From NCBI GenBank assembly GCA_020851635.1, contig JADZCJ010000119.1:1-64000 (forward strand): a stretch of DNA of 64,000 nt, in the 5' to 3' direction. The translations under genes were made by a program, and so were the position numbers. Source of the stretch: Anaerolineae bacterium. GTDB lineage: Bacteria; Chloroflexota; Anaerolineae; UBA4142; SHND01. Below are positions 9,341 through 63,938 of this stretch, piece by piece; position 1 is the stretch's first letter; each line of letters opens with the position of its first letter. The notes under the pieces are model-generated. The model made no database searches. It was not told the origin of the DNA and saw only the letters and a program-made list of their open reading frames with translations.

Positions 9341-9380
9341 TACCGTTGGATGAGAAAACGATTAGAAAGTATTCATGATT

Positions 9381-9412
9381 GAAACTTTTTACCTCATTTT
9401 CCGTGTTATAGA
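9381..9412 (+). promoter_or_regulatory. Putative promoter of the ECF sigma gene
   Basis: GAAAC at 9381-9385 and CGT at 9402-9404 are separated by 16 bases, resembling the AAC / CGT elements of ECF-dependent promoters, which would imply autoregulation. An overlapping TATAGA (9407-9412) lies exactly six bases before the ATG, compatible with a leaderless transcript. Both readings come from motif inspection only. Confidence 0.4.
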
Positions 9413-9418
9413 CTGAAC

Positions 9419-47899: not shown

Positions 47900-48592
47900 A
47901 TGCGTTCGAGTGACCTTGTCCTTTCACCTCTGGACGGTCCGACTTCTCTCAAGGACCACGCGTATCAGCGCATCAAAGATGCAATTCTCACTTTGCAGCT
48001 AAAACCCGGCGCGCCGCTTGTCGAAGCGGAACTCGCGGAACGACTCGGCGTCAGCAAAACCCCCGTGCGCGACGCGCTCCTCGAACTGCGCCGCGAGGGT
48101 CTCGTCACCAAAATCCCCTATTCGGGCACTTTTGTCTCGGAAATCACCCCCAAAGACACCCGCGAAATTATAGAGATTCGCGCGGTGTTGGAAGGTCTCG
48201 CCGCGCGCCTCGCGACCCCGCGCTTGAGCGAGACCGACCTGGTGTATCTCGAGAGCTTGATTGACCGCGAACTGGATGCGATTGACGCGGGCAACATCGA
48301 ACTCGCCACCCAGCTCAATGGTGAATTTCACAAAATCATTCTGGCACAAGTCGAGAATCAACGCCTCGTCGCGCTGGTTGAGAATTTCGAAGACCAGTTG
48401 CAGCGCTTTCGGATGCTTTCGAGCCAACTCAATGGGCGCTTGAGAAAATCCGCAGAGGAACATCGGCGCGTGCTGGGCGCCTTGTGTTCGCGCGATGCGG
48501 ATCGCGCCGAAGAATTTTTTCGCGAGCATTTGCTCAGCGTGCTTGATGATCTGACCAGTGAAGGCACCCAATCCAACAAGGAGGCAGGATGA
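47900..48592 (+). CDS. GntR-family (FadR/FCD) transcriptional regulator
   Basis: A 230-residue regulator. The N-terminal winged helix reads LAERLGVSKTPVRDALLEL; the C-terminal FCD helical bundle has metal-binding histidines in GEFHKII, EEHRRVL and REHLLSV. FCD members usually bind a carboxylic-acid effector. It overlaps the UbiD gene by four bases, so it heads the aromatic operon and probably controls it, perhaps with an aromatic acid as inducer. The start at 47900 has no strong ribosome site. Confidence 0.92.
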   Translation: MRSSDLVLSPLDGPTSLKDHAYQRIKDAILTLQLKPGAPLVEAELAERLGVSKTPVRDALLELRREGLVTKIPYSGTFVSEITPKDTREIIEIRAVLEGLAARLATPRLSETDLVYLESLIDRELDAIDAGNIELATQLNGEFHKIILAQVENQRLVALVENFEDQLQRFRMLSSQLNGRLRKSAEEHRRVLGALCSRDADRAEEFFREHLLSVLDDLTSEGTQSNKEAG

Positions 48593-50076
48593 AAGACTTG
48601 CGTGATTTTATTGCCCTTGCCGAAAGCGAGGGCGAATTGCGGCGCGTCACCGCGCCCGTAGACTGGAATCTCGAACTCAGTCACGTTGCCAAAGTCAACG
48701 AGGAACGCGGCGGACCCGCGCTGTTGTTCGAGAATGTAAAAGATTATAGCTCGCCCGTGCTGACGAGCGTTTGCACCAGCACCGCGCGCCTCGCGCTCAT
48801 CATGGGCATGCCCAAGGATACGCCGCTCGTCGAGCTGATGCGCGAATGGGTGAAACGCACGCGCAAAATGATTCCGCCGGTGTGGGTCGAAAGCGCGCCG
48901 TGCAAAGAAAATATCATGCTCGGCGACGATGTTGATTTGTATAAATTTCCCGTCCCCTGGGTTTATCCCAAAGATGGCGGACGCTATTTCGGCACCGCCG
49001 TTTTCGTCATCACTCGCGACCCGGAACGCGGTTGGGTGAATCTCGGCACCTACCGTTTGCAACTGCTCGGCAAGGACGTGCTCGGCACGCAATTCATCAA
49101 AGGCAAACACGCCGACATAATGCACAAACAATACGCGGCAATGGGTAAACCGATGCCCGTCGTCGCGGTCGTCGGCGCCGACCCGCTCTTGTTTCTCATG
49201 GGCGCGGCGCGGCTTCCCGCGTACGAAGATGAATTCGCGTTTGCGGGCGCGATCAAGGGCGAACCGATTGAGGTCATCAAAGCGCACACGAACGATTTGC
49301 CCGTTCCCGCTTCCGCCGAAATCGTCGTCGAAGGCGAAGTGGACCCCACCGCGACCATGCCCGAGGGTCCGTTCGGCGAATACACCGGTTACTATTCCGG
49401 CATCGGCACCACGCCGCGTCCTTTTATCAAAGTCAAGTGCATCACGCACCGCAACAATCCGATTTATTGGGGCACCACCGTCGGCCGCGCGGTGACGGAT
49501 ACGCACATGACAATGGCGTTGACATACGGCTCGACGCTGTGGCAAGAATTGGAAGCGATGCGGATTCCCGGCATCAAATCGGTTTATTGCCCACCCGAAG
49601 GCGCAGGACGTTTTCTCGCCATCATCTCGGTCAAGCAAATGTATCCCGGACATTCCGCCCAAGTCGGCACCGCCGCGATTTCGACCGAAATGGGCGCATA
49701 TGGTCTGAAAACAGTCATTGTCGTGGACGAAGACATTGACGCATGGGATTTGCCGCGCGTATTGTGGGCGCTCTCGTTCCGCTTTAATCCGTCGCGCGCA
49801 GAATTTCTCAAGCGCGGGCGTTCGACGCCGCTCGACCCCTCGCTGCCGATCAACGAACGCGAAATTACTTCGCGCATCATTCTCGACGCGACGATTCCGT
49901 ACGAATGGAAAGACAAACCGATTCCGATCGAACTCGACGAAAAAGTAAGGCAGCGCGTGTTGGCGCGATGGAGTGAATTCTTTCCCGAAACCGCCGCCGC
50001 GGCGTCCGGCGATGGCAACGGGCACATGCCCGCCGCGCAACCCGCCATGTCCGAAGGCGCGAAATTTGAGATGTGA
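48589..50076 (+). CDS. UbiD-family decarboxylase/carboxylase
   Basis: A 495-residue prenylated-FMN enzyme. It begins MKDLRDFIALAESEGELRRV; the prFMN-binding region is GRYFGTAVFVITRD and the acidic active-site motif lies in MPEGPFGEYTGYYSG. UbiD enzymes reversibly add or remove CO2 on aromatic or acrylic substrates. Between a phenylphosphate synthase and UbiX, and with a hydroxybenzoyl-CoA reductase downstream, its likely reaction is carboxylation of phenylphosphate to 4-hydroxybenzoate, as in phenylphosphate carboxylase. Thauera uses two UbiD-like subunits; only one is seen here. Confidence 0.92.
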   Translation: MKDLRDFIALAESEGELRRVTAPVDWNLELSHVAKVNEERGGPALLFENVKDYSSPVLTSVCTSTARLALIMGMPKDTPLVELMREWVKRTRKMIPPVWVESAPCKENIMLGDDVDLYKFPVPWVYPKDGGRYFGTAVFVITRDPERGWVNLGTYRLQLLGKDVLGTQFIKGKHADIMHKQYAAMGKPMPVVAVVGADPLLFLMGAARLPAYEDEFAFAGAIKGEPIEVIKAHTNDLPVPASAEIVVEGEVDPTATMPEGPFGEYTGYYSGIGTTPRPFIKVKCITHRNNPIYWGTTVGRAVTDTHMTMALTYGSTLWQELEAMRIPGIKSVYCPPEGAGRFLAIISVKQMYPGHSAQVGTAAISTEMGAYGLKTVIVVDEDIDAWDLPRVLWALSFRFNPSRAEFLKRGRSTPLDPSLPINEREITSRIILDATIPYEWKDKPIPIELDEKVRQRVLARWSEFFPETAAAASGDGNGHMPAAQPAMSEGAKFEM

Positions 50077-50160
50077 GACCGGTGGCAGGTTGCAGGTTGC
50101 CGATAGCAAATGAGGAGTTGCCATCTGCCGTCTGCTACCTGCCACCTGCCATGATCCAAC

Positions 50161-50970
50161 ATGCCAAAAATCTCCGGTTTTGTTTTTGATGTGGATGGCT
50201 GTGTGGCGCGCGGCAATCACGCGCTGCCCGGCGTGCCAGAGACGCTCGCCGTGCTGCGCGGGCGCGGGATTCGCTGCGCGTTCTTGACGAACGAAAATCA
50301 GCGCACCCGCGCGCAGGTTGTTGAAAAGTTGAATGGGCTTGGCATTCCGTGTATGCAAGACGATGTGTTGACTTCGGCGTCCGTCGCCGCGCACGTCACC
50401 AATACTCTGCATCCGGGCAAAAAAGTATTGGCAGTCGGCGCGGCGGGTTTGCTCGAAGCGTTACAGCTCGTCGGTGTGACGCTCGTGGATTGGGAGCACG
50501 CGACAGAGGCGCAAGTCGTGGTGATGGGCAAGGACCCCGATTTCAACATGAAGCGTCTCGACGCGGTTTGCCAAACGCTTTGGAACGGCGCGGATTTTAT
50601 CGCGACGAATCTCGACGCCAAAGTGCCGAGCGCGAACGGTTTCATTCCTGCGACGGGTCCGATGATCAAAGCGGTGGCGTATGCGGTGAGCAAAGAGCCG
50701 CTCGTCACCGGCAAGCCGTCGAAATGGGCGGGCGAGATGGCGTTAAAGGCGTTGGGCATCGCGCCCGAACATGGCGCCGTCGTCGGCGACGCGTTGGAAC
50801 AAGATATTCGCATGGGCAAAGACGCGGGTTTGTTCAGCATCCTCGTCCTCACCGGCGCGACGACGCAGGACATGGCAGACAACGCGCCCGCGCATTTGAA
50901 ACCCGATTTGGTGTTGGCAGATGTAAATCAACTGCCCGCGTGGTTGGAACAAGAGTTGGTGCCCGCATAA
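50161..50970 (+). CDS. HAD-superfamily subclass IIA hydrolase
   Basis: A 269-residue phosphatase-like protein with the nucleophile motif VFDVDGCVARG, a cap-domain motif LTNENQRTR, and the C-terminal motif VVGDALEQDIRMG. It resembles NagD/4-nitrophenylphosphatase proteins. In the phenol pathway of Thauera the delta subunit of phenylphosphate carboxylase is also described as a HAD-like protein, which makes a role in handling phenylphosphate plausible. The 85-base gap in front of it is a low-complexity GGCAGGT/ACCTGCC inverted repeat. Confidence 0.85.
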   Translation: MPKISGFVFDVDGCVARGNHALPGVPETLAVLRGRGIRCAFLTNENQRTRAQVVEKLNGLGIPCMQDDVLTSASVAAHVTNTLHPGKKVLAVGAAGLLEALQLVGVTLVDWEHATEAQVVVMGKDPDFNMKRLDAVCQTLWNGADFIATNLDAKVPSANGFIPATGPMIKAVAYAVSKEPLVTGKPSKWAGEMALKALGIAPEHGAVVGDALEQDIRMGKDAGLFSILVLTGATTQDMADNAPAHLKPDLVLADVNQLPAWLEQELVPA

Positions 50971-51105
50971 AAGCGCGGGGTCGAAATTGAGTTTGGGAGA
51001 AAGAGCGGTTAACGGATTTGAAAACGGCTGGTGATTAAGGGGTCGCGCCAATCGTCCAGTCACGTTGCTTAGCCGTTTTGCCCGCTATCTTGAAAGGAGA
51101 GAAAC

Positions 51106-52941
51106 ATGTCCGAAAATAATGGCAGCAACCGTTTCCCCAGCCCATTCAACGTCCCAACCCCGGAGGGCTGCGAGGGCTGGCAAGATTTGTATCCGTACTA
51201 TTATGTGTTCAGCGATGACCGCCGCGAGTTCGAGGACAATCGTTTTTGGTTCCAAGATTCGATGCATCATCCCGAACCTTTGTACCCCTTTGACACCATC
51301 ACTTGCGAAAGCTGGTGGGTCGCGCTCGGCGAAATGAACACGCGCGTCTTTATCGTGCCGCCCGCGCTCGGCATTGATCATCGCGTCTTGAACGGCTATC
51401 TCTATATCAGTGCGCTGCCCGTGCCGAATCCCGACGATATTCCGGGACGCGTCGCGCATTTCATGGAGCGCGCGGGCTATTACTACCGGCATTGGGATGA
51501 ATTGTATGCGCAGTGGCAAGCCAAAGCCGAAGAAGCGATCAACGAACTCAAATCCGTGCGCGTGCCCGACCTGCCGGAAATGGAACCGATCGAGACCGTG
51601 ACCCAGGGGCGCGGCTTGACGAGCGCGTACGATTTGATTGTGGCGTATAACCGCGCCATTGAGAACATGCACAAGATGTGGCATTTGCATTTTGAATTTC
51701 TCAATCTCGGTTATGCCGCGTATCTCACCTTTTACGGTTTCTGCAAACAAGCGTTTCCCGGAATCTCTGACCAGACGATTGCCAAACTCGTTTCGGGCAT
51801 TGACGTCATTCTCTTTCGCCCGGACGAAGAATTGAAACGGCTCGCGCACAAAGCGATCGAGCTTGGCGTCGCGGATGTGTTCAAACAAACCGTGAATCCG
51901 ACAGAAGTCGTTTCAACAATGAGCGCGTCGGAAGCGGGCGGACAATGGCTGCAGGAATTGGAAAAATCCAAAGACCCATGGTTCTATTTTTCCACCGGAA
52001 CCGGTTTTTATCACCTGCCTCGCAGTTGGGTTGACGACCTGACTGTGCCGACCGTCGCGATTCGCGGCTATGTCGAAAAAATTCAAGAGGGCAAAAGCAT
52101 CGCGCGTCCGATGGAAGCGGTTCAGCAGGAACGTGACCGTCTCGCCGCCGAATACGAAGCGCTGCTGCAAACGGACGAGGACAAAAAAGCATTCCGCGAG
52201 CAACTCGGCTTGGCGCGCACCGTTTTCCCCTATGTCGAGAATCACAATTTCTATGTCGAACATTGGCATCACACCGTTTTCTGGAACAAGATGCGCGAGT
52301 TTGGCAAGGTGTTGGTGGATCACGGATTTTTTAACGAAGTGGATGATATGTTTTATCTCCACCGCTACGAAGTGCAGTCCGCGCTGTATGACATGATCGG
52401 GGCGTGGGGTTCGGGCGGCGAAGCACGCGGACCGAAATACTGGCCCTCGCGCATTGCCAAGCGCAAAGAGATATTTGCAAAGCTCAAAAAGTGGTCGCCG
52501 CCGCCCGGCTTGGGCGAACCGCCCGAAGTGGTGACGGAACCATTCACCATTATGCTCTGGGGCATCACCACCGAAAGCATCCAGAATTGGCTCAAGCCCG
52601 CCGGGAATGTCGGAGACACGAAACAGCTCACCGGCTTTGCGGGTTCGCCGGGAACCGCGCAGGGTCCCGCGCGTGTGATTACGAGCGTCGAAGATCTCGC
52701 GCTGGTCGAAACGGGCGAAATTCTCGTTTGTCCCATTACCACGCCGAGTTGGGCGCCGGTATTCACACGCATTCAAGCGGTTGTCACCGACATCGGCGGC
52801 ATGATGTCGCACGCGGCGATTGTGTGCCGCGAGTACGGCGTGCCTGCGGTCGTCGGCACCGGGTTCGGCACCAAGAGTTTCAAAACCGGACAGATTCTGC
52901 GCGTGGATGGAAATGCAGGAACCGTCCAAGTGGCCGAATAA
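51106..52941 (+). CDS. ppsA: Phenylphosphate synthase subunit 1 (PEP-synthase-like phosphohistidine subunit)
   Basis: A 611-residue (about 70 kDa) protein. Its long N-terminal part (YPYYYVFSDDR, WFQDSMHHPEP, PPALGIDHRVLNGY) is unlike ordinary PEP synthase; its C-terminus is the PEP-utilising mobile domain with the phosphohistidine in GGMMSHAAIVCREYGVP, at residue 569. Phenylphosphate synthase of Thauera has a 70-kDa subunit of this build, and to my memory its active histidine is also residue 569. It would transfer a phosphoryl group to phenol. GAAAGGAGAG precedes the ATG. An aniline-type substrate is the alternative. Confidence 0.85.
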   Translation: MSENNGSNRFPSPFNVPTPEGCEGWQDLYPYYYVFSDDRREFEDNRFWFQDSMHHPEPLYPFDTITCESWWVALGEMNTRVFIVPPALGIDHRVLNGYLYISALPVPNPDDIPGRVAHFMERAGYYYRHWDELYAQWQAKAEEAINELKSVRVPDLPEMEPIETVTQGRGLTSAYDLIVAYNRAIENMHKMWHLHFEFLNLGYAAYLTFYGFCKQAFPGISDQTIAKLVSGIDVILFRPDEELKRLAHKAIELGVADVFKQTVNPTEVVSTMSASEAGGQWLQELEKSKDPWFYFSTGTGFYHLPRSWVDDLTVPTVAIRGYVEKIQEGKSIARPMEAVQQERDRLAAEYEALLQTDEDKKAFREQLGLARTVFPYVENHNFYVEHWHHTVFWNKMREFGKVLVDHGFFNEVDDMFYLHRYEVQSALYDMIGAWGSGGEARGPKYWPSRIAKRKEIFAKLKKWSPPPGLGEPPEVVTEPFTIMLWGITTESIQNWLKPAGNVGDTKQLTGFAGSPGTAQGPARVITSVEDLALVETGEILVCPITTPSWAPVFTRIQAVVTDIGGMMSHAAIVCREYGVPAVVGTGFGTKSFKTGQILRVDGNAGTVQVAE

Positions 52942-52957
52942 AGAGAAATAGCTGACG

Positions 52958-53078
52958 CAGTACATCACGAGTTTGGACGGGGAAAATCAAGTTGAACGCG
53001 GGATAGGAAAATTACAATTCTGATTTCCGCGCGCCTCTGCAAAGAACCGCGTCCGAAATGCAATCTTGTGATGTACTG
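52958..53078. repeat. Inverted repeat before the second phenylphosphate synthase gene
   Basis: CAGTACATCAC (52958-52968) is complementary to GTGATGTACTG (53068-53078), and a hairpin GACAGGT...ACCTGTC follows at about 53080-53102. The arrangement fills the gap between the two subunit genes and could adjust their relative expression or be another small palindromic element. Confidence 0.55.
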
Positions 53079-53115
53079 TGACAGGTCTTGTGAGAACCTG
53101 TCGCGTCTCGTACTT

Positions 53116-54195
53116 ATGAACAACTCACCCTACATTCTCTGGTTCACCGAATGTGACCGAAGCAAACAAAATTCGGTCGGCGGCAAATGCGCGAATCTCG
53201 GTGAGATGCTGCAAGCGAACGTCCGCGTACCGCCGGGCTTTGCTATCACTACGCACGCGTATCGCCAATTTCTGAGCGCGCGCGGCACGAGCAATGAAAT
53301 TGCGCGGATGTTGGACGAATTGGACGTGGACGATATCGAGTGCGCAGAAGAGACGAGCCGCGCGATTCGTCAACTCATGAGCGAGACGCCGATTCCGCCT
53401 GCGGTCGAAGACGCGATCTGCTATGCGTACGAAGAGCTCTGCGCCGAGTGTCAGGTCGCCGACTTGCCCGTCGCGGTGCGTTCGAGCGCGACGGCGGAAG
53501 ATTTACCCGGCGCGTCGTTTGCGGGGCAGCAAGAGACGACGCTGTGGGTCCGTTCCGCCTCACATGTCTTGATTCGCACCGCAATTTGTTGGTCGTCGCT
53601 TTTTACGACGCGCGCGATTGCGTATCGTAAGCAGATGGGCTTTCCGCACGACAAGGTGCACATGAGCGTCGGCATTCAAAAGATGGCAAACTCGCGCGCG
53701 GCGGGCGTAATGTTCACGCTCAATCCGATCAACGGCGATCGTTCCAAAATCGCGATTGATTCGAGTTGGGGCTTGGGTGAGAGCGTCGTCTCGGGGGTCG
53801 TCACACCGGACAATTACCTGGTGGATAAAGTGACGGAAGGAATTTTGCAGCGCAAGCTCTCGCCCAAACTCATCGAGTACATCCCAAATCATGCGGAAGG
53901 CAGAGTCGAAATCGTGGATGTGCCGCAAGAACGCCAGACCACTTCATCATTGAACGACGACGAGATCATCAACCTGACGATTCTGGCAAAATGTATCGAG
54001 GGCTATTACCGCGTGCCGATGGATATCGAGTGGGGCATTGACCGCGATTTGCCGTTTCCCGAAAGCGTGATGCTGCTGCAATGTCGCCCCGAAACGGTGT
54101 GGAGCAGCAAGCCGCCGACGCGCGTGATCGAACACAGCGGCACCGCACTCGATTATGTGATTGCAAATATGTTGAAAGGCGTGCGAGTCAAGTAA
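53116..54195 (+). CDS. ppsB: Phenylphosphate synthase subunit 2 (ATP-binding, PEP-synthase N-terminal-like)
   Basis: A 359-residue (about 40 kDa) protein equal to the ATP-grasp, nucleotide-binding part of PEP synthase only: GGKCANLGEML, AVRSSATAEDLPGASFAGQQ, RAAGVMFTLNP, IDSSWGLGESVVSG, and the terminal LLQCRPETVW. It has no mobile histidine domain, which is in the preceding gene. This split into 70-kDa and 40-kDa subunits is characteristic of phenylphosphate synthase. It provides the phosphoryl group from ATP. The frame extends upstream to 53068 through an inverted repeat, so the ATG at 53116 is preferred. No CBS-domain third subunit is seen. Confidence 0.85.
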   Translation: MNNSPYILWFTECDRSKQNSVGGKCANLGEMLQANVRVPPGFAITTHAYRQFLSARGTSNEIARMLDELDVDDIECAEETSRAIRQLMSETPIPPAVEDAICYAYEELCAECQVADLPVAVRSSATAEDLPGASFAGQQETTLWVRSASHVLIRTAICWSSLFTTRAIAYRKQMGFPHDKVHMSVGIQKMANSRAAGVMFTLNPINGDRSKIAIDSSWGLGESVVSGVVTPDNYLVDKVTEGILQRKLSPKLIEYIPNHAEGRVEIVDVPQERQTTSSLNDDEIINLTILAKCIEGYYRVPMDIEWGIDRDLPFPESVMLLQCRPETVWSSKPPTRVIEHSGTALDYVIANMLKGVRVK

Positions 54196-54229
54196 TCGGC
54201 AGGCAGTCAGCAGAGCGCAAGAGGACAGC

Positions 54230-54889
54230 GTGGGCAAAAAAACAGAACGACTCGTGATCGGCGTGTCGGGCGCAAGCGGAGTGATTTACGCGATTCGTTT
54301 GCTGCAAGTGCTGCGCGAGGTAGAGAGCATTGAAACGCATCTCGTCATCAGCAATTCCGCCAAACAAACAGTTTCGTTGGAAACGGATTATACCGTCGAG
54401 TATGTTGAAGCGCTTGCGAGGCGCGTCTATCGCTTTAACGATGTCGCCGCCGCGATCTCTTCGGGCTCATTCAAAACACGCGGCATGGTCGTCATTCCCT
54501 GTTCGATGAAAACACTGTCGTCCATCGCCCATTCGTTCGGCGAAAATTTGCTCTCGCGCGCGGCGGACGTGACGTTAAAAGAACAGCGCCGTCTGGTGCT
54601 CGTGCCGCGCGAAACGCCGCTGCATCTCGGGCATTTGCGCTTGCTCTCTACCGTTGCGGAACTCGGCGCGGTGATCATGCCGCCGATGCCCGCGTTTTAT
54701 CATCGCCCGCAAACGCTCGACGACATTGTGAATCAAACGGTCAACCGCGTGCTCGACCTTTTGGACATTGAACTGCCGCACGATCTGTTTACGCGCTGGG
54801 CAGGTCCGCAAACGCGCGGCGCGGCGCGTTTGAACGGGCATGGGCAGCACGCGCCGGCGCAGGTGTCCTATGAGTCGAACGACGAATGA
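54230..54889 (+). CDS. ubiX: UbiX-family flavin prenyltransferase
   Basis: A 219-residue enzyme that joins dimethylallyl phosphate to FMN to make prenylated FMN for UbiD. The flavin-binding start is LVIGVSGASGVIYAIRLL, followed by VIPCSMKTLSSIAH and LVLVPRETPLHLGHLRLL, family motifs for prenyl phosphate and FMN binding. It starts at GTG with GAGGA upstream. It lies in the same block as the UbiD gene, as expected for a dedicated cofactor supplier. Confidence 0.94.
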   Translation: MGKKTERLVIGVSGASGVIYAIRLLQVLREVESIETHLVISNSAKQTVSLETDYTVEYVEALARRVYRFNDVAAAISSGSFKTRGMVVIPCSMKTLSSIAHSFGENLLSRAADVTLKEQRRLVLVPRETPLHLGHLRLLSTVAELGAVIMPPMPAFYHRPQTLDDIVNQTVNRVLDLLDIELPHDLFTRWAGPQTRGAARLNGHGQHAPAQVSYESNDE

Positions 54890-56030
54890 GCTGGACGCGG
54901 CAACATTCCAAGGATTGCGCGACGGCGCGCCCGCGTTTATATTGACAACCGGCGCGGATGATTTTCCACATGCGGCGCTCACCTATGCGCTCGCGCTCGA
55001 CGCCAAACGGATCCGTTTTTGCATTGACCTCAATACGGCAACCTACAACAATCTCCAACACGCGGCGCGCGGCGCAATCCAAATCGTCGGCGCGGAAAAT
55101 CGCGTCTGCCTCGTCAAAGGCGCCGTGCGGCTTGTGCGCGACCGACTCGCCGCGAAACCATCGCCCGCCGCATTGTTTGAATTACAAATCACCCACGCGC
55201 AAGACCAGGCGTGGCGCGGCGTAACGGTCGCGCCGCTCACGTACGCATGGGATGAACCAAACCGCGCGCTGATGCAAGAAATGGAACAAAAAGTGTTTGC
55301 CGAAATGCGCGCTGACGCGAAAATGATGCCGAACGTGAAAGTTTATTTTGTGCGGCACGGCGAAGTGGAACATCACCAAAGTGATGTTGAGCTCACCGCG
55401 CGCGGACGCGCCCAAGCGCGCGCGGTTGGCGGAGAACTCGCGGCGCGCGTTTCCGACGCCGACGCGGCGATTCATATATTTCATTCGCCCGTGCGCCGCG
55501 TCGTGGAAACCGCGCAGCTGTTGACGGAAGCGCTGTGCGCGGCATTGCCAACGAGCACGACGCGAGTGCATTCACCTCTGCCCGACGGCGCGCTCGAAAA
55601 TGTGCGCTTTGTTTCCGATTCACGGCGCGGACTCCAAGAACCATCGCTGCTGTATTCGGAATTGAATACGCCCGCGTTTTTGCAAACCATTTCGCCGGTG
55701 CGCGCGGAATTTTTCCGCGGCTTTTGGGCGAGCGACGATCCGATGGGTTATTGGCTCACGCACGACAGCGACGGCGGCGCAGAAACGCCCGCGGCGGTTT
55801 TGCGGCGACTGCAGGAACGATTGCGCGGAATTTTTTCGTCGGATGCGGCGAATGTGGTTTTTATTCTGACGACACATTCCGGCGCGATGCGCGTGCTGCT
55901 CGCCAGCGCCTTGGGCGCAGACCCGGGCGAACCCAATTTTTGCGAAATCATCGCGCTTGAACCATCATTCGATTCGAGTTCGGTACGGCTGACTTTTCGC
56001 GGACAAACGGTGTCTTATGCCCTATTTTGA
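54870..56030 (+). CDS. Flavin split-barrel domain fused to a histidine phosphatase
   Basis: A 386-residue protein with two modules. Residues about 5-150 form a pyridoxamine-phosphate-oxidase-like split barrel (PAFILTTGADDFPHAALTYA), which binds flavin in relatives. Residues about 155-386 form a histidine phosphatase domain with the complete catalytic set: VYFVRHGEVEH, the second arginine in HSPVRRVVETA, and TTHSGAMR. The gene overlaps ubiX by 20 bases and the CoA ligase by 14, so it belongs firmly to the operon. It could dephosphorylate phenylphosphate, act on FMN or dimethylallyl precursors, or repair a by-product. I know no characterised protein of this architecture. Confidence 0.85.
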   Translation: MSRTTNELDAATFQGLRDGAPAFILTTGADDFPHAALTYALALDAKRIRFCIDLNTATYNNLQHAARGAIQIVGAENRVCLVKGAVRLVRDRLAAKPSPAALFELQITHAQDQAWRGVTVAPLTYAWDEPNRALMQEMEQKVFAEMRADAKMMPNVKVYFVRHGEVEHHQSDVELTARGRAQARAVGGELAARVSDADAAIHIFHSPVRRVVETAQLLTEALCAALPTSTTRVHSPLPDGALENVRFVSDSRRGLQEPSLLYSELNTPAFLQTISPVRAEFFRGFWASDDPMGYWLTHDSDGGAETPAAVLRRLQERLRGIFSSDAANVVFILTTHSGAMRVLLASALGADPGEPNFCEIIALEPSFDSSSVRLTFRGQTVSYALF

Positions 56031-57306
56031 TCCCACCATCGAAACGCTGCCCCGCGCGCAACTCGCCGATTTGCAACTGCAAAAACTCCAAACGCTGCTG
56101 AGCGAATTGTGGGACCGCAACACGTTCTATACACACAAGTTTCGCGCGGCGGGCTTGCATCCGCGCGATCTAGATACGCTCGACGACCTTGCCAAGTTTC
56201 CCTTTACGCTGAAACGCGAACTCGTCCAAGACCAGAGCGAATGTCACCCGTTCGGCACGAACCTGACCTATCCACTCCGCCATTATGTGCGCTATCACCA
56301 AACGTCCGGCACAACGGGCGCGCCTTTGCGCGTGTTGGATACGGAAGAGAGTTGGGATTGGTGGGGCAAATGCTGGGGCTATGTGTTGTCGGGCGCGGGT
56401 TTGTGCGCCGATGACCGTTTGTTTACCGCGTTTTCGTTCGGACCGTTTATCGGTTTTTGGGCGGCGGTGGAAGGGGCGCGCAAAATTGGCGCGATGATGA
56501 TTCCCGGCGGAGGGCGCGATTCAATCCAGCGCTTGGAGTTGATGCGCGACGCGGGGGCGACAGCAATCTGCTGCACGCCAACGTATGCGCTGCGCTTGCT
56601 GGAAGTCGCGCGCGAAAGTAATTTTGACATGCGCGCGCTCAGCGTGCGCGCCACCGTTCACGCGGGCGAGCCGGGCGCCAGTGTGCCGGAAACCAGGGCG
56701 CGCATCGAAGCAGGTTGGCGCGCGAAATGTTTTGACCATGCGGGCGCGTCCGAAGTGGGCGCGCACTCGTTCAGCTGCGACGAGCAAGCGGGCATTCATA
56801 TCATCGAAAGCGAATTTATTGCCGAAGCGCTCGACCGCGAAACGGGCAAACCGGCTGCGCCCGGTGAGGTGGGCGAACTGGTCATTACAAATCTGGGCAG
56901 ATTGGGTTTTCCGATCATTCGATATCGCACGGGCGATTTGGTGTGTCTGAATACCGAACCGTGTCGCTGCGGGCGCACTTTTGCGCGCTTTGAGGGCGGC
57001 GTTCTCGGGCGCGCGGACGACATGACGACGGTGCGCGGTGTGAATGTGTATCCGATAGCGGTAGAGAAACTGATTGTGAATTTTGATCAAGTGATCGAAT
57101 ACCGCATCACCGTTGAGCGCGTGCGCGAGATGGACGAAATGGACATTGAAGTCGAACTGACCGACGATGCCGATCCCGCGCTGCCGAACGCCATCGCGCA
57201 AAGCATCTATCACGCGCTTTCATTTCGCCCGAACGTGCGCGTCGTAGAGCGCGGCGTCCTGCCGCGCTTTGAACTCAAGGCGAAACGATTCTTTATAAAG
57301 AAATAA
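56017..57306 (+). CDS. AMP-forming CoA ligase of the phenylacetate-CoA ligase family
   Basis: A 429-residue adenylating enzyme. The ATP-binding loop is YHQTSGTTGAPLRVL, the mid motif FDHAGASEVG, the adenylate-binding region ELVITNLGRLGFPIIRYRTGD, and the C-terminal hinge GRADDMTTVRGVNVYP. It uses ATP and CoA to activate an aromatic acid; in this context 4-hydroxybenzoate is the natural candidate, because UbiD would make it and the reductase downstream consumes 4-hydroxybenzoyl-CoA. The specificity is inferred from context only. The start overlaps the preceding gene. Confidence 0.88.
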   Translation: MPYFDPTIETLPRAQLADLQLQKLQTLLSELWDRNTFYTHKFRAAGLHPRDLDTLDDLAKFPFTLKRELVQDQSECHPFGTNLTYPLRHYVRYHQTSGTTGAPLRVLDTEESWDWWGKCWGYVLSGAGLCADDRLFTAFSFGPFIGFWAAVEGARKIGAMMIPGGGRDSIQRLELMRDAGATAICCTPTYALRLLEVARESNFDMRALSVRATVHAGEPGASVPETRARIEAGWRAKCFDHAGASEVGAHSFSCDEQAGIHIIESEFIAEALDRETGKPAAPGEVGELVITNLGRLGFPIIRYRTGDLVCLNTEPCRCGRTFARFEGGVLGRADDMTTVRGVNVYPIAVEKLIVNFDQVIEYRITVERVREMDEMDIEVELTDDADPALPNAIAQSIYHALSFRPNVRVVERGVLPRFELKAKRFFIKK

Positions 57307-57313
57307 AATATAA

Positions 57314-57357
57314 TAACGAATTCATTCGTTCGCCGGAGTGAACGAATGAATTCGTTA
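57314..57357. terminator. Inverted repeat between the CoA ligase and reductase genes
   Basis: A perfect 18-bp stem (TAACGAATTCATTCGTTC against 57340-57357) with an eight-base loop, eight bases after the ligase stop codon. T residues follow only in the minus direction, so on the plus strand it may only attenuate or stabilise the message, or be a repeat element. Confidence 0.6.
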
Positions 57358-57368
57358 CTGCGCAACTC

Positions 57369-58349
57369 ATGCTGCGCTTACCTCCTTTTGAATATCACGC
57401 GCCGCGCTCGATTGAGCAAGCGGTGAATCTGGGTGCCGAACATGGCACAGCGGCGATGTTTGTCGCGGGCGGCACCGATTTGTATCCGAATATGAAGCGG
57501 CGGCAATTCACACCCCAAGTGTTGATTGGTTTGAACGGCGTTGAGGAATTGCGCGGCATCTCGAACGGAGACGGCATCACGATTCGCGCCGGCACAACAC
57601 TGCACCAAGTCTCCAATTCTCCGCTTCTTCAGACTCAATACCCTGCGCTTGCCACCGCCGCCAAGCTCGTTTCCACGCCGCAGCTGCGCGCGATGGGCAC
57701 GCTCGGCGGCAATCTTTGTCTCGATACACGCTGCAATTATTACAATCAAGAATTTTCGTGGCGGCAAGCGTTGGGCTTTTGCATGAAAAAGGACGGCGAA
57801 ATCTGCATGGTCGCGCCGGGTTCATCGCGCTGTTGGGCGGTTTCGTCCACCGATTGCGCGCCGGTGGTTGTCGCGTTGGAGGGGCGCGTGCGACTCGTCA
57901 GCGCGCGCGGCGAACGCGTGATCGCGGCGAGCGATTTGTATCGCGATGACGGCATCGAATATCTCGGCAAAGCACGCGATGAAATCGTCACCGAAATCCT
58001 CTTGCCGCCGGCGGATGGAACAAAGTCCGTTTATCTCAAATTGCGCCGGCGCGATTCGTTTGACTTTCCGATTCTTGGGGTTGCCGCCGCGCTCCGCCTG
58101 GCGTCGAACGGCGAAATCGAAAGCGCGCGGATTGTGTTGGGCGGCGTCGGTTCGCGTCCGTTGGAATGTGTTGACTCGGCGCGTTTGTTGATCGGGCAAA
58201 AATTGTCGCATAAAGTGATTGGCGCGGCGGCGGAAGCGGCATGGAGACCGGCGCGCCCGTTGGACAATACCGACAGCACACACAGCTATCGCAAAAAGAT
58301 GGCGCGCGTGTATGTGGCGCGGGCGTTGGGCGCACTGAGCGAGCAATGA
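57369..58349 (+). CDS. hcrB: 4-Hydroxybenzoyl-CoA reductase, FAD subunit
   Basis: A 326-residue member of the xanthine oxidase FAD subunit family (FAD motif FVAGGTDLYPNMK, second loop LRAMGTLGGNL). It has an insertion directly after that loop with four cysteines at residues 122, 138, 146 and 155 (DTRCNYYNQ, FCMKKDGEIC, SSRC). Such an insertion holds an extra 4Fe-4S cluster in 4-hydroxybenzoyl-CoA reductase and is missing in other family members, so the specific assignment is strong. Electrons from a low-potential ferredoxin enter here. It overlaps hcrC by four bases. No ribosome site is obvious at its ATG. Confidence 0.93.
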   Translation: MLRLPPFEYHAPRSIEQAVNLGAEHGTAAMFVAGGTDLYPNMKRRQFTPQVLIGLNGVEELRGISNGDGITIRAGTTLHQVSNSPLLQTQYPALATAAKLVSTPQLRAMGTLGGNLCLDTRCNYYNQEFSWRQALGFCMKKDGEICMVAPGSSRCWAVSSTDCAPVVVALEGRVRLVSARGERVIAASDLYRDDGIEYLGKARDEIVTEILLPPADGTKSVYLKLRRRDSFDFPILGVAAALRLASNGEIESARIVLGGVGSRPLECVDSARLLIGQKLSHKVIGAAAEAAWRPARPLDNTDSTHSYRKKMARVYVARALGALSEQ

Positions 58350-58831
58350 AGAGTATTTTACATTTGCGCGTGAACGGACAAACGCACGAATTGTATACGG
58401 ACACGCACAAGACGCTCCTCGAAGTGCTGCGCGAAGATTTGGGCTTGACCGGCACCAAACACGGCTGCGATTTGGGCGAATGCGGCGCGTGTACCGTGCT
58501 CGCGGATGGCACACCGATTTTGGCGTGTCTCGCGCTGCCGATTGAATTGCAGGGACGCGAGATTACAACCGTCGAAGGACTCGCGCGCGGCGCGGAATTG
58601 CATCCGCTGCAACGCGCGTTTGCGGAATTGAACGCGGCACAGTGCGGCTATTGCACGGCGGGCATGATGTTGAGCGCCAAAGCGCTGCTCGACCGCGAAA
58701 AAAATCCGACGCGCGAAGACATTCGCGACGCGCTCGCGGGCAACCTGTGTCGCTGTACGGGTTACGAAAAAATCTTGGAAGCGGTGGAAACAGTCGCAAG
58801 TCAACAATCAACCGGAGAGAGCAAAGGGTGA
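58346..58831 (+). CDS. hcrC: 4-Hydroxybenzoyl-CoA reductase, 2x[2Fe-2S] subunit
   Basis: A 161-residue iron-sulfur subunit. The N-terminal plant-ferredoxin-type cluster is bound in KHGCDLGECGACTV and the second cluster in CGYCTAGM and NLCRCTGY. It is the small subunit of the molybdenum hydroxylase complex and passes electrons from the FAD/4Fe-4S subunit to molybdenum. It overlaps hcrB by four bases and lies 31 bases before hcrA. Confidence 0.93.
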   Translation: MKSILHLRVNGQTHELYTDTHKTLLEVLREDLGLTGTKHGCDLGECGACTVLADGTPILACLALPIELQGREITTVEGLARGAELHPLQRAFAELNAAQCGYCTAGMMLSAKALLDREKNPTREDIRDALAGNLCRCTGYEKILEAVETVASQQSTGESKG

Positions 58832-58862
58832 TGCTTGACTCGCGACTCTCGGCTCTCGACTA

Positions 58863-61289
58863 ATGCCCGTCATCGGCGCTCCTCTCGCAAAGATTGACAG
58901 TTGGGACAAGGTCATCGGCGCGGCGAAATACGCGGATGACATGAGTTTGCCGCGCATGTTGCACGCGCGCATTTTACGCAGCACAATGCCGCACGCGCGC
59001 ATCGTGAGCATTGACACGCGCGGCGCGGAGGAATTGCCCGGCGTCGTCGCAGTGATTACCGGACGCGATGTGCCAATCGAGTATGGCATTTTGCCGAGCA
59101 GTCAGGACGAACAAGCATTGTGCGTGGACAAGGTGCGCTTTGTGGGCGACGCGGTGGCGGCGGTGGCTGCGCTGGATGCCGAGACCGCCGAACGCGCGTT
59201 GCAGCTGATTCATGTCGAGTATGAACCGTTGACGCCGATTGTGACGATGAACGAAGCGCTCGATGAAACGCGCGACGCAATTCACACCGGCGCGCACGCC
59301 GACCATCACAACATTCACAAAATGGTGGCGTTGGAATTTGGCGATTTGGACGCGGGCTTTGCGGAAGCGGATTATATTCTAGAGGACACTTATTTTTATC
59401 AAGGCAACACACACCTCGCGCTCGAAAACCATGCGGCGCTTGCGTCGTTTTCACCCGACGGGCATTTGACGCTGTGGAGTTCGACGCAAACGCCGCATTA
59501 CGTTCATCGCGCGCTGGCGAAAACGTTGGAATTGCCCGCGAGCCGCATCCGCGTCGTCGCGGCGGCGATTGGCGGCGGCTTTGGCGGCAAGACCGACCCT
59601 TTTTCGCACGAAATCGTCGCGTGCAAATTGGCGATGCTCACCGGTCGCCCGGTAAAAATTACGCTCACGCGCCAAGAAGTGTTTTATTGTCATCGCGGAC
59701 GCCACCCCGTTTTGATGTGGGTGAAAATGGGCGTGCGCCAAGATGGTGAGCCAACCGCGCTGCATTTTCGCACCCTGCTCGACGGCGGCGCATACGGTTC
59801 ATACGGCGTCGCCTCGACGTATTACACGGGCGCGCTACAAACGGTGACATACAAAATTCCCGCGTATAAATTTGAAGGGATGCGCGTGTTCACCAACAAA
59901 CCGCCGTGCGGACCAAAACGCGGACACGGCACGCCACAGCCGCGCTTTGCGCTCGAAATTCATCTCGACAAGATCGCGCGTCATCTCGGTCTCGACCCCG
60001 CCGCATATCGCAAACAATTTATCGTTGAAGATAAAACTAAAACCGTAAACCATCTCACCATCACAACCTGCGGCTTGAGCGAGTGCATTGACCGCGTTGT
60101 TGAAGCGTCAGGATTTGGAGGCGAGAAGCGAGAAGCGAGAAGCGAGATACATGAATCAAAAATCGAAAATCAAAAATCAAAAATCAAAAATGGACTCGGT
60201 CTCGCCTGCGGTTCCTACCTCTCCGGCGCGGGGCTGCCAATTTATTGGAACCAGATGCCGCATTCGGGCGTGATTGTCAAAGTGGATCGCGGCGGCGGCG
60301 TCGCGGTGTTTTGCGGTTCCACCGATATCGGACAAGGTTCCACTTCGCTGCTCGCGTATATCGCGGCGGAAGAATTTGGAATTGATGTGCGCGATGTGCG
60401 CGTGATTACGGCGGACACCGATTTGACGCCGGTGGATTTGGGCAGCTATTCGAGCCGCGTCACGGTGATGACGGGCAACGCGTGCATCAGCGCGATTCGC
60501 CCGCTCAAACAAAAAATTTTGGACGCGGCGGCGGAAAAATTGCTCGTGCCTGCCGAAAGTTTGAGTTTCCGCGACGGCGAAATTATTTGCGAGGACGACG
60601 ACGCGCGGCGTTTGAAATGGACAGAGGCGATTGCGCTTGCCGAAGCGAAACATGGCACGTTGAGCGGCACGGGCAGTTACAAACCGCCGAAACGCGCGGG
60701 TCCCTACAAAGGTTCGGGCGTCGGCATCTCACCGAGTTACAGCTATGCCGCGTGTGTGGCGCAAGTGAGCGTGGACATCGAAACGGGCCAAGTGCGCGTG
60801 GAAAAAATTTGGCTCGCGCATGATGGCGGGCGCGCGCTGAATCCAATTCTCGTCGAGGGCCAAGTCGAAGGCAGCGTCTATATGGGCGTCGGCGAAGCGT
60901 TGATGGAAGAGATGACGTATCGCGGCGGTTTGCACAAAGCGCCGTCATTGCTCGATTATAAATCGTTGACGATGCGCGACATGCCGCCCGTTGAAACATT
61001 CCTCGTCGAAACAAATGACCCCGAAGGTCCGTTCGGCGCCAAAGAAGCGGGCCAAGGTCCGCTGCTCCCCGTTCCGCCCGCGATTGCGAACGCGATCTAC
61101 GATGCGATTGGCGTCCGCATTGACGAGACGCCGATAACGCCCGACAAAATTTTGAAAGCGTTAGAAGAACAAGAAAAGGGACGCGCCGCGCGTTTCGGTC
61201 CGAAAAATTTCCCTGCTGTGAAATATCCCGAACCCATCCGCGTCGAGCCACCGGAGGACGCGCCGCGTTTGGAACGAAAAAAGGGGTGA
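58863..61289 (+). CDS. hcrA: 4-Hydroxybenzoyl-CoA reductase, molybdenum subunit
   Basis: An 808-residue molybdenum-cofactor subunit of the xanthine oxidase family. It has the conserved GGGFGGKTDPFSHEIVA segment and the catalytic glutamate in FGAKEAGQG. With hcrB and hcrC it would reductively remove the para-hydroxyl of 4-hydroxybenzoyl-CoA to give benzoyl-CoA. About 23 residues around positions 420-442 (EKREARSEIHESKIENQKSK) are low-complexity and encoded by simple tandem DNA repeats, an apparent in-frame insertion at a surface loop. The ATG lacks a ribosome site and follows a CTCTCGACT-type repeat. Confidence 0.92.
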   Translation: MPVIGAPLAKIDSWDKVIGAAKYADDMSLPRMLHARILRSTMPHARIVSIDTRGAEELPGVVAVITGRDVPIEYGILPSSQDEQALCVDKVRFVGDAVAAVAALDAETAERALQLIHVEYEPLTPIVTMNEALDETRDAIHTGAHADHHNIHKMVALEFGDLDAGFAEADYILEDTYFYQGNTHLALENHAALASFSPDGHLTLWSSTQTPHYVHRALAKTLELPASRIRVVAAAIGGGFGGKTDPFSHEIVACKLAMLTGRPVKITLTRQEVFYCHRGRHPVLMWVKMGVRQDGEPTALHFRTLLDGGAYGSYGVASTYYTGALQTVTYKIPAYKFEGMRVFTNKPPCGPKRGHGTPQPRFALEIHLDKIARHLGLDPAAYRKQFIVEDKTKTVNHLTITTCGLSECIDRVVEASGFGGEKREARSEIHESKIENQKSKIKNGLGLACGSYLSGAGLPIYWNQMPHSGVIVKVDRGGGVAVFCGSTDIGQGSTSLLAYIAAEEFGIDVRDVRVITADTDLTPVDLGSYSSRVTVMTGNACISAIRPLKQKILDAAAEKLLVPAESLSFRDGEIICEDDDARRLKWTEAIALAEAKHGTLSGTGSYKPPKRAGPYKGSGVGISPSYSYAACVAQVSVDIETGQVRVEKIWLAHDGGRALNPILVEGQVEGSVYMGVGEALMEEMTYRGGLHKAPSLLDYKSLTMRDMPPVETFLVETNDPEGPFGAKEAGQGPLLPVPPAIANAIYDAIGVRIDETPITPDKILKALEEQEKGRAARFGPKNFPAVKYPEPIRVEPPEDAPRLERKKG

Positions 61290-61467: not shown

Positions 61468-62324
61468 TTGGGTGCTCCCTTTTGAACAAACGATAAAAAC
61501 CAAAGGTAATCATTATGACCAATGTGTATACCAATCCAGATATTGCAGAAAGGTTTGAAGAATTAATACTTGAAGGTGAACGCCAGCGAAGCGAACAAGA
61601 AGCGCATAATTGGGAAGTTAGGAATCCTGTAGAATTGACGCGGTGGACTACAAGTTGCCTAAATTTGCTCGATAAATTATCTATTTCAACTAATCGTTTT
61701 GTAACTGAATTTGAACTCTATGGCAGAGTGAAAAATAATAATTTCAATATGGGATTAGCACTTGGCGTACTCAAATCGGCAAAAGAAGAATATTTATTAG
61801 GGTTGGCGGTTGATTATCAACTTTCAGTATCTGCATCTGTTTTTAGCAGCATCCTTGATGAAGCACAATATCTTCTATCAAAAGGTTATTTAAGAGCGTC
61901 TGCTGTGCTTGCAGGTGCGGCTCTTGAAGAAGGCTTGAAATCTCGTGCTCGTGTTGTAGGGCTAGAAATTACTAAACGAGATACGCTTGACCCAGTTATT
62001 GACAAACTAAAACAAAATGATGTTGGCATATTATCTGAATTTGACGCGAAACGTTTGAAGTCAATAACAACAATACGCAATGACGCGGCTCATGGGGGTG
62101 AATTCCCCTACCAAAAATCTCAAGTTCAAGAAATGATAACTGACGTTGAGAAAACAATAAACCGTTTGCTCGGATATAGGTAATTCTAAAAAAGCAACGC
62201 ACCCAACAAAGCGTGCACTTGACGGGTGGGACTCTGCGCCATTTTCGGGCTTTTTCCACGCCCGAACAGAATCCTGCTCTCGGAGTTTTGTCTCGTCCCG
62301 CCCACCCGCAGGTAACGCAAACCG
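61468..62324 (+). mobile_element. Integron-type gene cassette 1 (HEPN-like protein)
   Basis: The cassette starts after the G of GTTGGGT (61467-61473), contains one gene in the same direction and ends inside an attC site whose first core is ACCCAAC (62201), the exact complement of its own starting core. That match is expected only if the DNA once existed as a circle closed by attC. It is clearly AT-richer than the chromosome around it. No integrase gene is in the window. Upstream (61393-61460) the motif GCAGAATTGCGG occurs twice in direct orientation. Confidence 0.75.
61515..62183 (+). CDS. HEPN-like (DUF4145-like) cassette protein
   Basis: A 222-residue soluble helical protein. The C-terminal half contains AGAALEEGLKSRARVVGLEI and IRNDAAHGGEF; the latter gives Arg-x4-His (RNDAAH), the motif of HEPN ribonuclease-type domains found in defence and toxin systems. 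Base composition differs sharply from neighbouring genes. It is the only gene of cassette 1, about 40 bases after its left boundary. The identification as HEPN is from motif and length, not from alignment. Confidence 0.65.
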   Translation: MTNVYTNPDIAERFEELILEGERQRSEQEAHNWEVRNPVELTRWTTSCLNLLDKLSISTNRFVTEFELYGRVKNNNFNMGLALGVLKSAKEEYLLGLAVDYQLSVSASVFSSILDEAQYLLSKGYLRASAVLAGAALEEGLKSRARVVGLEITKRDTLDPVIDKLKQNDVGILSEFDAKRLKSITTIRNDAAHGGEFPYQKSQVQEMITDVEKTINRLLGYR

Positions 62325-62330
62325 TTGGGC
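62201..62330 (+). repeat. attC-like recombination site 1
   Basis: A 130-base imperfect palindrome bounded by ACCCAAC and GTTGGGC, matching the integron core rule RYYYAAC...GTTRRRY. Inside, CTTGACGGGTGGG and the complement of CCCACCCGCAGG pair imperfectly, and TTCGGGC/GCCCGAA forms an inner hairpin. The sequence is about 90 percent identical to 62896-63025. Confidence 0.75.
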
Positions 62331-63019
62331 AGTTTCTTGCAAAACGAAGGTAAGGAAAATGAAAACCAAGATACTTGGCGTTATTCTTGTAATTGCTTTG
62401 GTTTCTTGCGCTCCAGTACCAGCCACCAAAGTAACAGATATTCTGCAATCACCAGCAACTTTACAAGATGTTGTAATCACTTTAGAAAGAACAATGTGTT
62501 TTGGCTCTTGTCCTGTCTATCTTTTAACAATAAAAGGAGATGGAACTGTAATTTTTGATGGGCGTAAATATGTCAAAGATGAAGGGCAACACATAACAAC
62601 AATCAGCCAAGAGGATGTAAAAGCATTAGTTCTAGAATTTGAACGAATCAACTACTTTTCGTTTTCAAATTTTACTGATTACGATATGACAGACATGCCG
62701 TATGCAATAACATCAATTACAATTAATGGAACTACTACAACAGTGGAACATTATCATGGTGATGGCGACGCTCCAAAAGAATTGTTCGAGTTAGAAAGAA
62801 AAATTGACAAAGTTTCAAATTCGACTCAATGGATTGGAGAGTAGCGCAAGTTCGTTGAATCTTGGCAAATCAATAGTTCTATCATTTCAAAAACTGCCCA
62901 ACAAAGCGTGCACTTGACGGGTGGGATTCTGCGGCATTTTCGGGCTTTTTCCACGCCCGAACAGAATCCTGCTCTCGGAGTTTTATCTACGCCCGCCCAC
63001 ACGCGGGTAACGCCAACCG
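62325..63019 (+). mobile_element. Integron-type gene cassette 2 (DUF6438-like lipoprotein)
   Basis: This cassette starts at TTGGGC (from the GTTGGGC core at 62324) and its own attC opens with GCCCAAC (62896), the exact complement, again showing that start and end once closed a circle. It holds one AT-rich gene in the same direction. Its right junction is GTTACGT, after which chromosomal-type GC-rich sequence resumes. Confidence 0.75.
62359..62844 (+). CDS. DUF6438-like lipoprotein, cassette-borne
   Basis: A 161-residue lipoprotein (signal ending ALVSC). The mature part begins with a motif of the form TLERTMCFGSCPVYLLTI, in which CFGSCPVY is typical of DUF6438 proteins, and is otherwise beta-rich with an HYHGDGDAP loop. 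Its base composition is far more AT-rich than the surrounding chromosome. AAGGAAA lies just before the ATG. No function is known for the family. Confidence 0.72.
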   Translation: MKTKILGVILVIALVSCAPVPATKVTDILQSPATLQDVVITLERTMCFGSCPVYLLTIKGDGTVIFDGRKYVKDEGQHITTISQEDVKALVLEFERINYFSFSNFTDYDMTDMPYAITSITINGTTTTVEHYHGDGDAPKELFELERKIDKVSNSTQWIGE

Positions 63020-63062: not shown

Positions 63063-63938
63063 GTGACAGCCAAGATTACCGGACGCGTTGTTACAGGTTT
63101 GGGACAGGGCGCGCAACTTACGCAGCTCGAATGGGCGCGCGCGCAATTTGTTGACAAGCTCGGCATTGACCCCTTTCCCGGCACGCTCAATGTGATGGTT
63201 GACGCGTCCGACACAAGCGCATGGGAACAGTGGAAAACCGCGCCGGGCGTCGAGATCGTTCCACCGAACGCGGATTGGTGCAATGCGCGCGCGTATCCGA
63301 TTCGCGTCGCGGGGCGCGTGAACGGCGCGATTATTTTGCCTGAAGTGGCAGGATATTCGCCAACCCAAATCGAAATCATCGCGAAGGTCTCACTGCGCGA
63401 AACATTGCAACTGAACGACGGCGATGCGCTCGCGCTTGAATTGACGACGCGCGAAAACGCAACTGCGCGCATCAACGCGAACGCGCGCATTAACGCGCAC
63501 GCATATTTACGCGCGCACAATGTGATGACGCTTGCGACGCATGGTCCCGAAGGATTGTGGGCGGCGGCGGTTTTTTACGTCAGCGAAAATTTTGATTTGT
63601 ATTTTCTCTCGTCACCCTCCACGCGTCATGCTTTGAATCTCGCGGCGAACCCGCGCGTGGCGGTGACGATTCAAGAAGATTACAGCGATTGGCGCGCCAT
63701 TCAAGGGATTCAGATGGAAGGCGACGTGACGCGCTTGGAAGGTTTGGAGCAGACGCGCGCGATATTGTCGTATGGCAAAAAATTTTCCATCGTGGAAAAT
63801 ATCGCACGCGCGCCCGCCGAAATTGCGCGCGCGTTCAGCCGCGTCGCGTGGTATCGCGTCACGCCAACGCGCGTTTTTTTTGTTGACAACGCGCAAGGGT
63901 TCGGACATCGCGACGAGATTGCGCTCGACCTATTATGA
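63063..63938 (+). CDS. Archaeal-type riboflavin kinase domain fused to a flavin split-barrel domain
   Basis: A 291-residue protein. Residues about 1-135 match the archaeal CTP-dependent riboflavin kinase fold (DUF120/RibK): GRVVTGLGQGAQL, LGIDPFPGTLNVMVD, ARAYPIRVAG, IEIIAKVSLRETLQLNDGD. Residues about 150-291 are a pyridoxamine-phosphate-oxidase-like flavin barrel (NVMTLATHGPEGLW, YFLSSPSTRHALNLAANPRV). It may make FMN and hold or use it. Lying beside UbiX and UbiD genes, which need FMN, it suggests flavin supply, though cassette DNA separates it from that operon. The start is GTG at 63063. Whether it uses CTP or ATP is not visible. Confidence 0.85.
   Translation: MTAKITGRVVTGLGQGAQLTQLEWARAQFVDKLGIDPFPGTLNVMVDASDTSAWEQWKTAPGVEIVPPNADWCNARAYPIRVAGRVNGAIILPEVAGYSPTQIEIIAKVSLRETLQLNDGDALALELTTRENATARINANARINAHAYLRAHNVMTLATHGPEGLWAAAVFYVSENFDLYFLSSPSTRHALNLAANPRVAVTIQEDYSDWRAIQGIQMEGDVTRLEGLEQTRAILSYGKKFSIVENIARAPAEIARAFSRVAWYRVTPTRVFFVDNAQGFGHRDEIALDLL

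Follow-up and report, generated by a model that had tools for sequence, protein, structure and literature searches.

A bacterial riboflavin kinase-like domain fused to a split barrel near an anaerobic phenol operon, and its possible part in prenylated FMN supply

UbiX requires reduced FMN and dimethylallyl phosphate (DMAP) as substrates, and in practice, obtaining enough correctly matured prenylated FMN (prFMN) is what limits UbiD enzymes. DMAP is made from DMAPP by the Nudix hydrolase NudJ, and from prenol by ThiM (PMC12359138). Activation of UbiD through prFMN maturation is described for PhdC and YclD, two proteins of the split-barrel type (PMC13040415). The known phenol regulator of the pps-ppc cluster is pheR (PMC10715001). 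Work on bacterial DUF120 proteins together with UbiX was not found in the open-licence literature searched, which omits most subscription papers, nor is a prFMN-supply module described there as such; as evidence of novelty this is weak.

The window analysed here, a stretch of 64,000 nucleotides from an Anaerolineae genome, encodes a protein in which a DUF120 domain of the riboflavin kinase type is joined to a split barrel. On balance, this protein is judged to belong to a dedicated prFMN supply line, a reading held with modest confidence.

The fusion protein and its two domains

The open reading frame at positions 63063 to 63938 of the forward strand is real and complete. It starts with GTG, ends with TGA and encodes 291 amino acids. 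Here and throughout, gene starts were taken from open reading frames only, and many of the genomes compared are metagenome-assembled genomes (MAGs). An earlier note on this DNA had described the N-terminal half as DUF120 over its whole length and the C-terminal half as a split barrel, and profile searches bear out both descriptions. The N-terminal DUF120, or CTP-dependent riboflavin kinase, domain comprises residues 1 to 135 (63063 to 63467, forward strand); Pfam PF01982 matches residues 9 to 126 with profile positions 1 to 120 of 121 (E 5.3e-30, 104.3 bits, cut-off 25). The C-terminal domain, PNPOx-like and YhbP-like, comprises residues 138 to 291 (63474 to 63935, forward strand) and is supported by a PF01243 (PNPOx_N) match at residues 146 to 274 (E 2.6e-11, 44.4 bits, cut-off 28.1), by its structural model and by stand-alone homologues. 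Ta1064 and MJ0056 are phmmer matches of the fusion with E of about 1e-11. The protein scores below the NCBIfam equivalog cut-offs for ribK_Meth (65.7 against 168 bits) and PRK14165 (87.5 against 279 bits), and the best NCBIfam match of the barrel, NF002900 (YhbP; E 1.6e-19), likewise stays under its cut-off with 70.1 against 176 bits.

The window genome contains a single DUF120 copy. The two domains are fused in frame also in a second, independent Anaerolineae MAG (locus L003), whose protein is about 90% identical and has a linker six residues longer, and the fusion is therefore not an assembly artefact; this copy and the E-values together rule out chance or mis-assembly. The fusion is nonetheless rare: the DUF120-barrel arrangement proper was found in two genomes, and the same two proteins are usually encoded by separate neighbouring genes. 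No relatives of the barrel were found in the viral contigs searched.

MAFFT misaligned a set that mixed fused sequences with DUF120-only and barrel-only ones, and each half was therefore modelled separately with AlphaFold2, giving a mean pLDDT of 90.7 for the DUF120 half and 92.4 for the barrel half. Structural comparison of the DUF120 model yields Z 19.7 with RbkR (5trd; 1.8 Å over 130 residues) and Z 18.1 with MJ0056 in its CDP- and FMN-bound form (2vbv; 2.2 Å over 126 residues), at 30–31% identity in both cases, and the first unrelated structure follows at Z 6.9. The comparison with MJ0056 had been proposed beforehand as a check on the kinase assignment. As modelled, the DUF120 half adopts the RibK cradle-loop barrel fold. 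The barrel model matches many split barrels with Z 13 to 17.5, the best being 2arz at 17.5; PhdC is absent among the PDB matches listed for it. Some of these structural neighbours bind haem, some F420 and some flavin (FMN), so by its fold the barrel may bind any of the three.

The phenol operon and related neighbourhoods

The region from 47900 to 61289, all on the forward strand, reads as an anaerobic phenol operon. At its head, a GntR-type regulator is recognised by its translation (47900 to 48592), and it is followed by a UbiD-family phenylphosphate carboxylase beta subunit (48589 to 50076; TIGR02724, 521 bits, cut-off 469) and, judging by profile and sequence, a HAD hydrolase of the Hydrolase_6 type (50161 to 50970). 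A PEP-utilising enzyme resembling the phenylphosphate synthase alpha subunit (51106 to 52941) is 49 to 54% identical to homologues in pps-ppc operons, and the adjacent PPDK_N protein resembles the beta subunit by profile and homologues (53068 to 54195). The UbiX flavin prenyltransferase (54230 to 54889) exceeds the cut-offs of both NF004685 (281.6 bits) and TIGR00421 (245.6 bits). The next reading frame (54840 to 56030) encodes a second split barrel, SBw2, fused to a histidine phosphatase (PF00300, E 1.1e-18; PNPOx_N match weak); it overlaps the end of ubiX, and its true start may lie at about 54870. The series closes with a PaaK-type aryl-CoA ligase, from its sequence probably a 4-hydroxybenzoate-CoA ligase (56017 to 57306), and with translations resembling the HcrB/C/A subunits of 4-hydroxybenzoyl-CoA reductase (57369 to 61289, as 57369 to 58349, 58241 to 58831 and 58863 to 61289), homologues of which also lie beside pps-ppc in locus L062. 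A carboxylase above the TIGR02724 cut-off thus occurs in one window with homologues of both phenylphosphate synthase subunits and with UbiX, the combination taken to indicate the pathway.

Apart from a weak CoaBC-like match, the UbiD at 48589 to 50076 and the UbiX at 54230 to 54889 are the sole copies in the genome; a PF01977 search of the 97.7% complete assembly revealed no second UbiD that could serve as a separate carboxylase alpha subunit. The protein combining SBw2 and histidine phosphatase is a candidate DMAPP phosphatase plus flavin handler. No relatives of SBw2 were found on the plasmids searched, and NF005232, tried as a link between SBw2 and YclD, gave no match in B. subtilis or the other control genomes. 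An ordinary RibF with a PTAN motif is intact elsewhere in the window genome, which rules out the DUF120 half as the sole source of FMN.

The fusion gene lies 1.8 kb downstream of the operon end, behind two unrelated genes, with UbiX 8.2 kb and UbiD 13 kb upstream of it. The Hcr genes are separated from it by a HEPN/DUF4145-like gene and a DUF6438 gene (61515 to 62844). Other genes occupy the space between operon and fusion in L003, and the spot looks insertion-prone. The closeness to UbiX and UbiD on which the earlier note had remarked proved to reflect a stronger link than foreseen, one that shows across phyla in shared operons, in gene fusions and in the number of UbiD copies.

Among separately encoded barrels, those nearest in sequence to the window barrel (53–61% identity) adjoin UbiX or pheR. 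In Rhodocyclales and in Geobacter relatives, the stand-alone barrel lies directly downstream of the sigma-54 regulator beside pps-ppc genes, and its gene overlaps or abuts pheR. Two Anaerolineae have the barrel directly downstream of ubiX (L004, with an 11-bp overlap, and L018); pps genes or DUF120 were not seen on the stretch examined there. In canonical pps-ppc operons of Azoarcus and Sulfuritalea, the start of DUF120 overlaps the end of ubiX; the overlap is 4 bp long in loci L062 and L063 and likewise on the Azoarcus sp. KH32C plasmid, where the annotated order is ppcB, ppcD, ppcA, ppcG, ubiD, ubiX, DUF120, NUDIX and AMP-ligase. A zinc-ribbon Nudix protein, a candidate DMAP maker, directly follows ubiX-DUF120 in betaproteobacterial phenol operons (L094:21030-21575; L062, about 9249-9815).

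Geobacter relatives show the order pheR, barrel and then DUF120-HAD, and ubiX lies on the same stretch in five loci. A second, different split-barrel gene (SB144) was observed beside DUF120-HAD in these organisms (L011:10461-10895). Within Chloroflexota, a HAD-DUF120 fusion is divergent from ubiX in L043, DUF120 is convergent with ubiX in L044, and in L045 to L047 DUF120 directly precedes a separate barrel gene, in the order of the fusion and with an overlap of 11 bp in L046. Fusions of DUF120 to a HAD phosphatase (L011:10871-11935, L043:6271-7383, L090:9876-10949 and L091:9082-10332) occur in both domain orders and must therefore have arisen at least twice. No UbiX lies near the DUF120-HAD loci of genomes G546, G576 and G688. 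DUF120 is optional: of 27 genomes that encode a close homologue of the barrel, 17 lack it, as do several complete pps-ppc clusters.

A family search detected DUF120 in 8 of 400 Chloroflexota, 8 of 369 Sulfuritalea-class and 12 of 277 Geobacter-class genomes. For the neighbourhood count, 20 bacterial-type DUF120 loci from this search were used, with the seeds excluded. UbiX, UbiD or the barrel lies within about 10 kb in 12 of them, and UbiX in 6, with chance proximity to UbiX estimated by us at below 1% per locus (about one copy in 4 Mb). The DUF120 contig of G914 was left out of the counts; on this short contig of a Geobacter-class bin (L087, G914:C48), a DUF120 that groups with the archaeal sequences stands beside a ribB-like gene, probably as a bin contamination. 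When 20 genomes with DUF120 were checked, UbiX was above cut-off in 19 and UbiD in 19, the exception being G606, in which a divergent DUF120 forms part of a protein of 529 aa. At L093:8544-10133, a divergent DUF120-like segment forms the start of a 529-aa protein within what resembles a sugar-modification island; the genome lacks UbiD.

In Chloroflexota, DUF120 marks UbiD-rich genomes. Among the 399 other Chloroflexota, at least five UbiD genes occur in 6 of 7 genomes with DUF120 and in 12 of 392 others (Fisher p about 2e-8), and any UbiD in 7 of 7 and 119 of 392, respectively (p 3e-4); these p values are inflated by shared ancestry, as the seven genomes represent five families, three of them coming from one family, and a per-genome figure of 7 stands for at least 7. 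Three of the Chloroflexota genomes with DUF120 (G013, G038 and G185) each hold 35 UbiD genes and a single UbiX. Further UbiD expansions were noted in G073 (24) and G121 (43 first-look candidates).

It is unlikely that the DUF120 half is an active riboflavin kinase for the general FMN supply of a flavin-rich anaerobic metabolism, without any special hand-over to UbiX and with a neighbourhood that reflects co-regulation only. Aromatic degradation involves many flavoenzymes, and the kinase core residues and fold are retained. Against general supply speak the 4-bp overlaps with ubiX itself, the barrel-ubiX operons outside phenol clusters, and the correlation with UbiD number in genomes that have no phenol cluster nearby.

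Kinase residues of the bacterial subfamily

Residues were compared by aligning 30 DUF120 sequences, 25 of them bacterial and 5 archaeal or archaeal-like; positions follow the numbering of the window protein. G7, G12, G14, P39, G40, T41, N43, P93 and E104 are invariant across all 30, and R112 is near-invariant. Loss of the RibK binding residues, which the earlier note had named as grounds for refuting its reading, is not seen: the window protein has G12, G14, P39-G40-T41, N43, P93, E104 and R112, and thus retains the glycine loop, PGTLN, the glutamate and the arginine of the kinase core. From work on MJ0056, we take the threonine and asparagine of GTLN to bind Mg and the glutamate to contact the flavin.

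Other positions differ between the two groups. In archaeal proteins, position 17 is K, Q or R, and positions 95 and 96 hold a basic residue plus threonine (R95-T96), whereas the window protein has A17, V95 and A96. Bacterial members mostly carry alanine at 17, have mostly lost the archaeal pair at 95 and 96, and possess W24, C73 and Y98-P99 of their own. In the tree, they form a clade apart from the archaeal sequences with support of 100/99; the one outlier is a divergent, long-branched Chloroflexota sequence (L048), which groups on the archaeal side. By alignment and tree, the bacterial DUF120 proteins are a distinct subfamily with an intact core. Replacement of the archaeal basic residue and the Arg-Thr pair may have brought a shift of substrate or of phosphate donor.

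Taken further, such a shift could mean that the alcohol phosphorylated by bacterial DUF120 is a different one, such as prenol, which would yield DMAP, the other substrate of UbiX. A kinase route from prenol to DMAP is known for ThiM (PMC12359138), and both the separate clade and the exchange of ligand-region residues (W24, C73 and Y98-P99 gained, K/R/Q17 and R95-T96 lost) would suit this alternative. It is nevertheless rated slightly below general FMN supply and as rather improbable, given that the core glutamate and the metal-site residues of riboflavin kinase are invariant and that the clusters already contain a phosphohydrolase that might form DMAP.

The chances are slimmer again that the DUF120 half has lost its kinase function and instead binds flavin or nucleotide as a carrier or sensor, in the manner of the regulatory side of RbkR, with the pheR-adjacent barrels being regulatory as well. 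RbkR combines kinase activity with DNA binding according to the title of 5trd, the barrel gene overlaps or abuts pheR, and most members have lost the basic residue of the archaeal nucleotide loop. Nearly all members, however, keep the core threonine, asparagine, glutamate and arginine, residues that an inactive protein could do without, and the bacterial fusions have no DNA-binding domain attached. That unrelated genes merely hitch-hike in islands for aromatic degradation is very improbable: the genes between operon and fusion do differ between the window and L003, but the same partners recur in three phyla, in several gene orders and independent fusions, and with a genome-wide UbiD correlation.

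A proposed prFMN supply line and its known relatives

The preferred reading remains a dedicated supply of prFMN. From the domains, fold, core residues, genetic association and co-occurrence with UbiD-rich genomes observed, we infer its catalytic steps, the barrel ligand and direct transfer. The DUF120 half would most likely convert riboflavin to FMN, beside the ordinary RibF. A neighbouring phosphohydrolase probably makes DMAP, namely the histidine phosphatase fusion in the window, the Nudix protein in betaproteobacteria and HAD-DUF120 in Geobacter, and UbiX would then prenylate FMN with DMAP. Acting as flavin reductase, carrier or maturase, the barrel half may take up FMN, reduced FMN or prFMN and mediate its transfer between UbiX and UbiD. 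In the window, the prFMN would serve one UbiD, the phenylphosphate carboxylase beta subunit, in anaerobic phenol degradation. The presence of Nudix, HAD or histidine phosphatase proteins in equivalent places fits a DMAP-forming role that unrelated enzymes could fill, while it is possible that the HAD protein acts instead on a phosphate of the riboflavin pathway. Since RibF is intact and many pps-ppc genomes lack DUF120, the proposed module would be no essential step but a means to increase supply or local transfer.

The genetic association of DUF120, barrel, UbiX and UbiD is seen in three phyla. More tentatively, with the chances close to even but leaning against, bacteria may own a dedicated module for prFMN supply, in which a riboflavin kinase of archaeal type, a split barrel linked to UbiX and a phosphohydrolase of interchangeable kind (HAD, Nudix or histidine phosphatase) would provide UbiX with its two substrates and receive its product, the fusions being hand-over devices. 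The finding names candidates for each step of prFMN supply. It also offers a reason for the scattered bacterial occurrence of a supposedly archaeal riboflavin kinase, which follows UbiX and UbiD.

Several described systems resemble parts of this arrangement. The archaeal kinases MJ0056 (2vbv) and Ta1064/RbkR (5trd) are alike in sequence and fold over the whole DUF120 length and share the glycine loop, PGTLN, the glutamate and the arginine. Unlike them, proteins of the window type are bacterial, have a C-terminal split barrel or HAD domain and no HTH, and carry the subfamily's new residues in place of the archaeal basic residue and Arg-Thr. RibF, the bifunctional riboflavin kinase/FAD synthetase, belongs to an unrelated family, and the same phosphorylation is expected of the DUF120 half. 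PhdC and YclD (PMC13040415) are likewise small proteins of the split-barrel type that accompany UbiX and UbiD, and these activate UbiD. PhdC is HpaC-like by structure, whereas the window barrel is PNPOx/YhbP-like, and PhdC does not appear among the PDB matches listed; enterobacterial YhbP is about 30% identical to the window barrel. The pps-ppc clusters of Thauera, Azoarcus and Geobacter have the synthase, carboxylase beta and UbiX genes in common with the window, and that of Azoarcus sp. KH32C also has DUF120, the barrel and Nudix. The window differs from these known clusters in belonging to Chloroflexota, in its single UbiD of the beta type, in the fusion of DUF120 to the barrel, and in the second fusion of a barrel to a histidine phosphatase.
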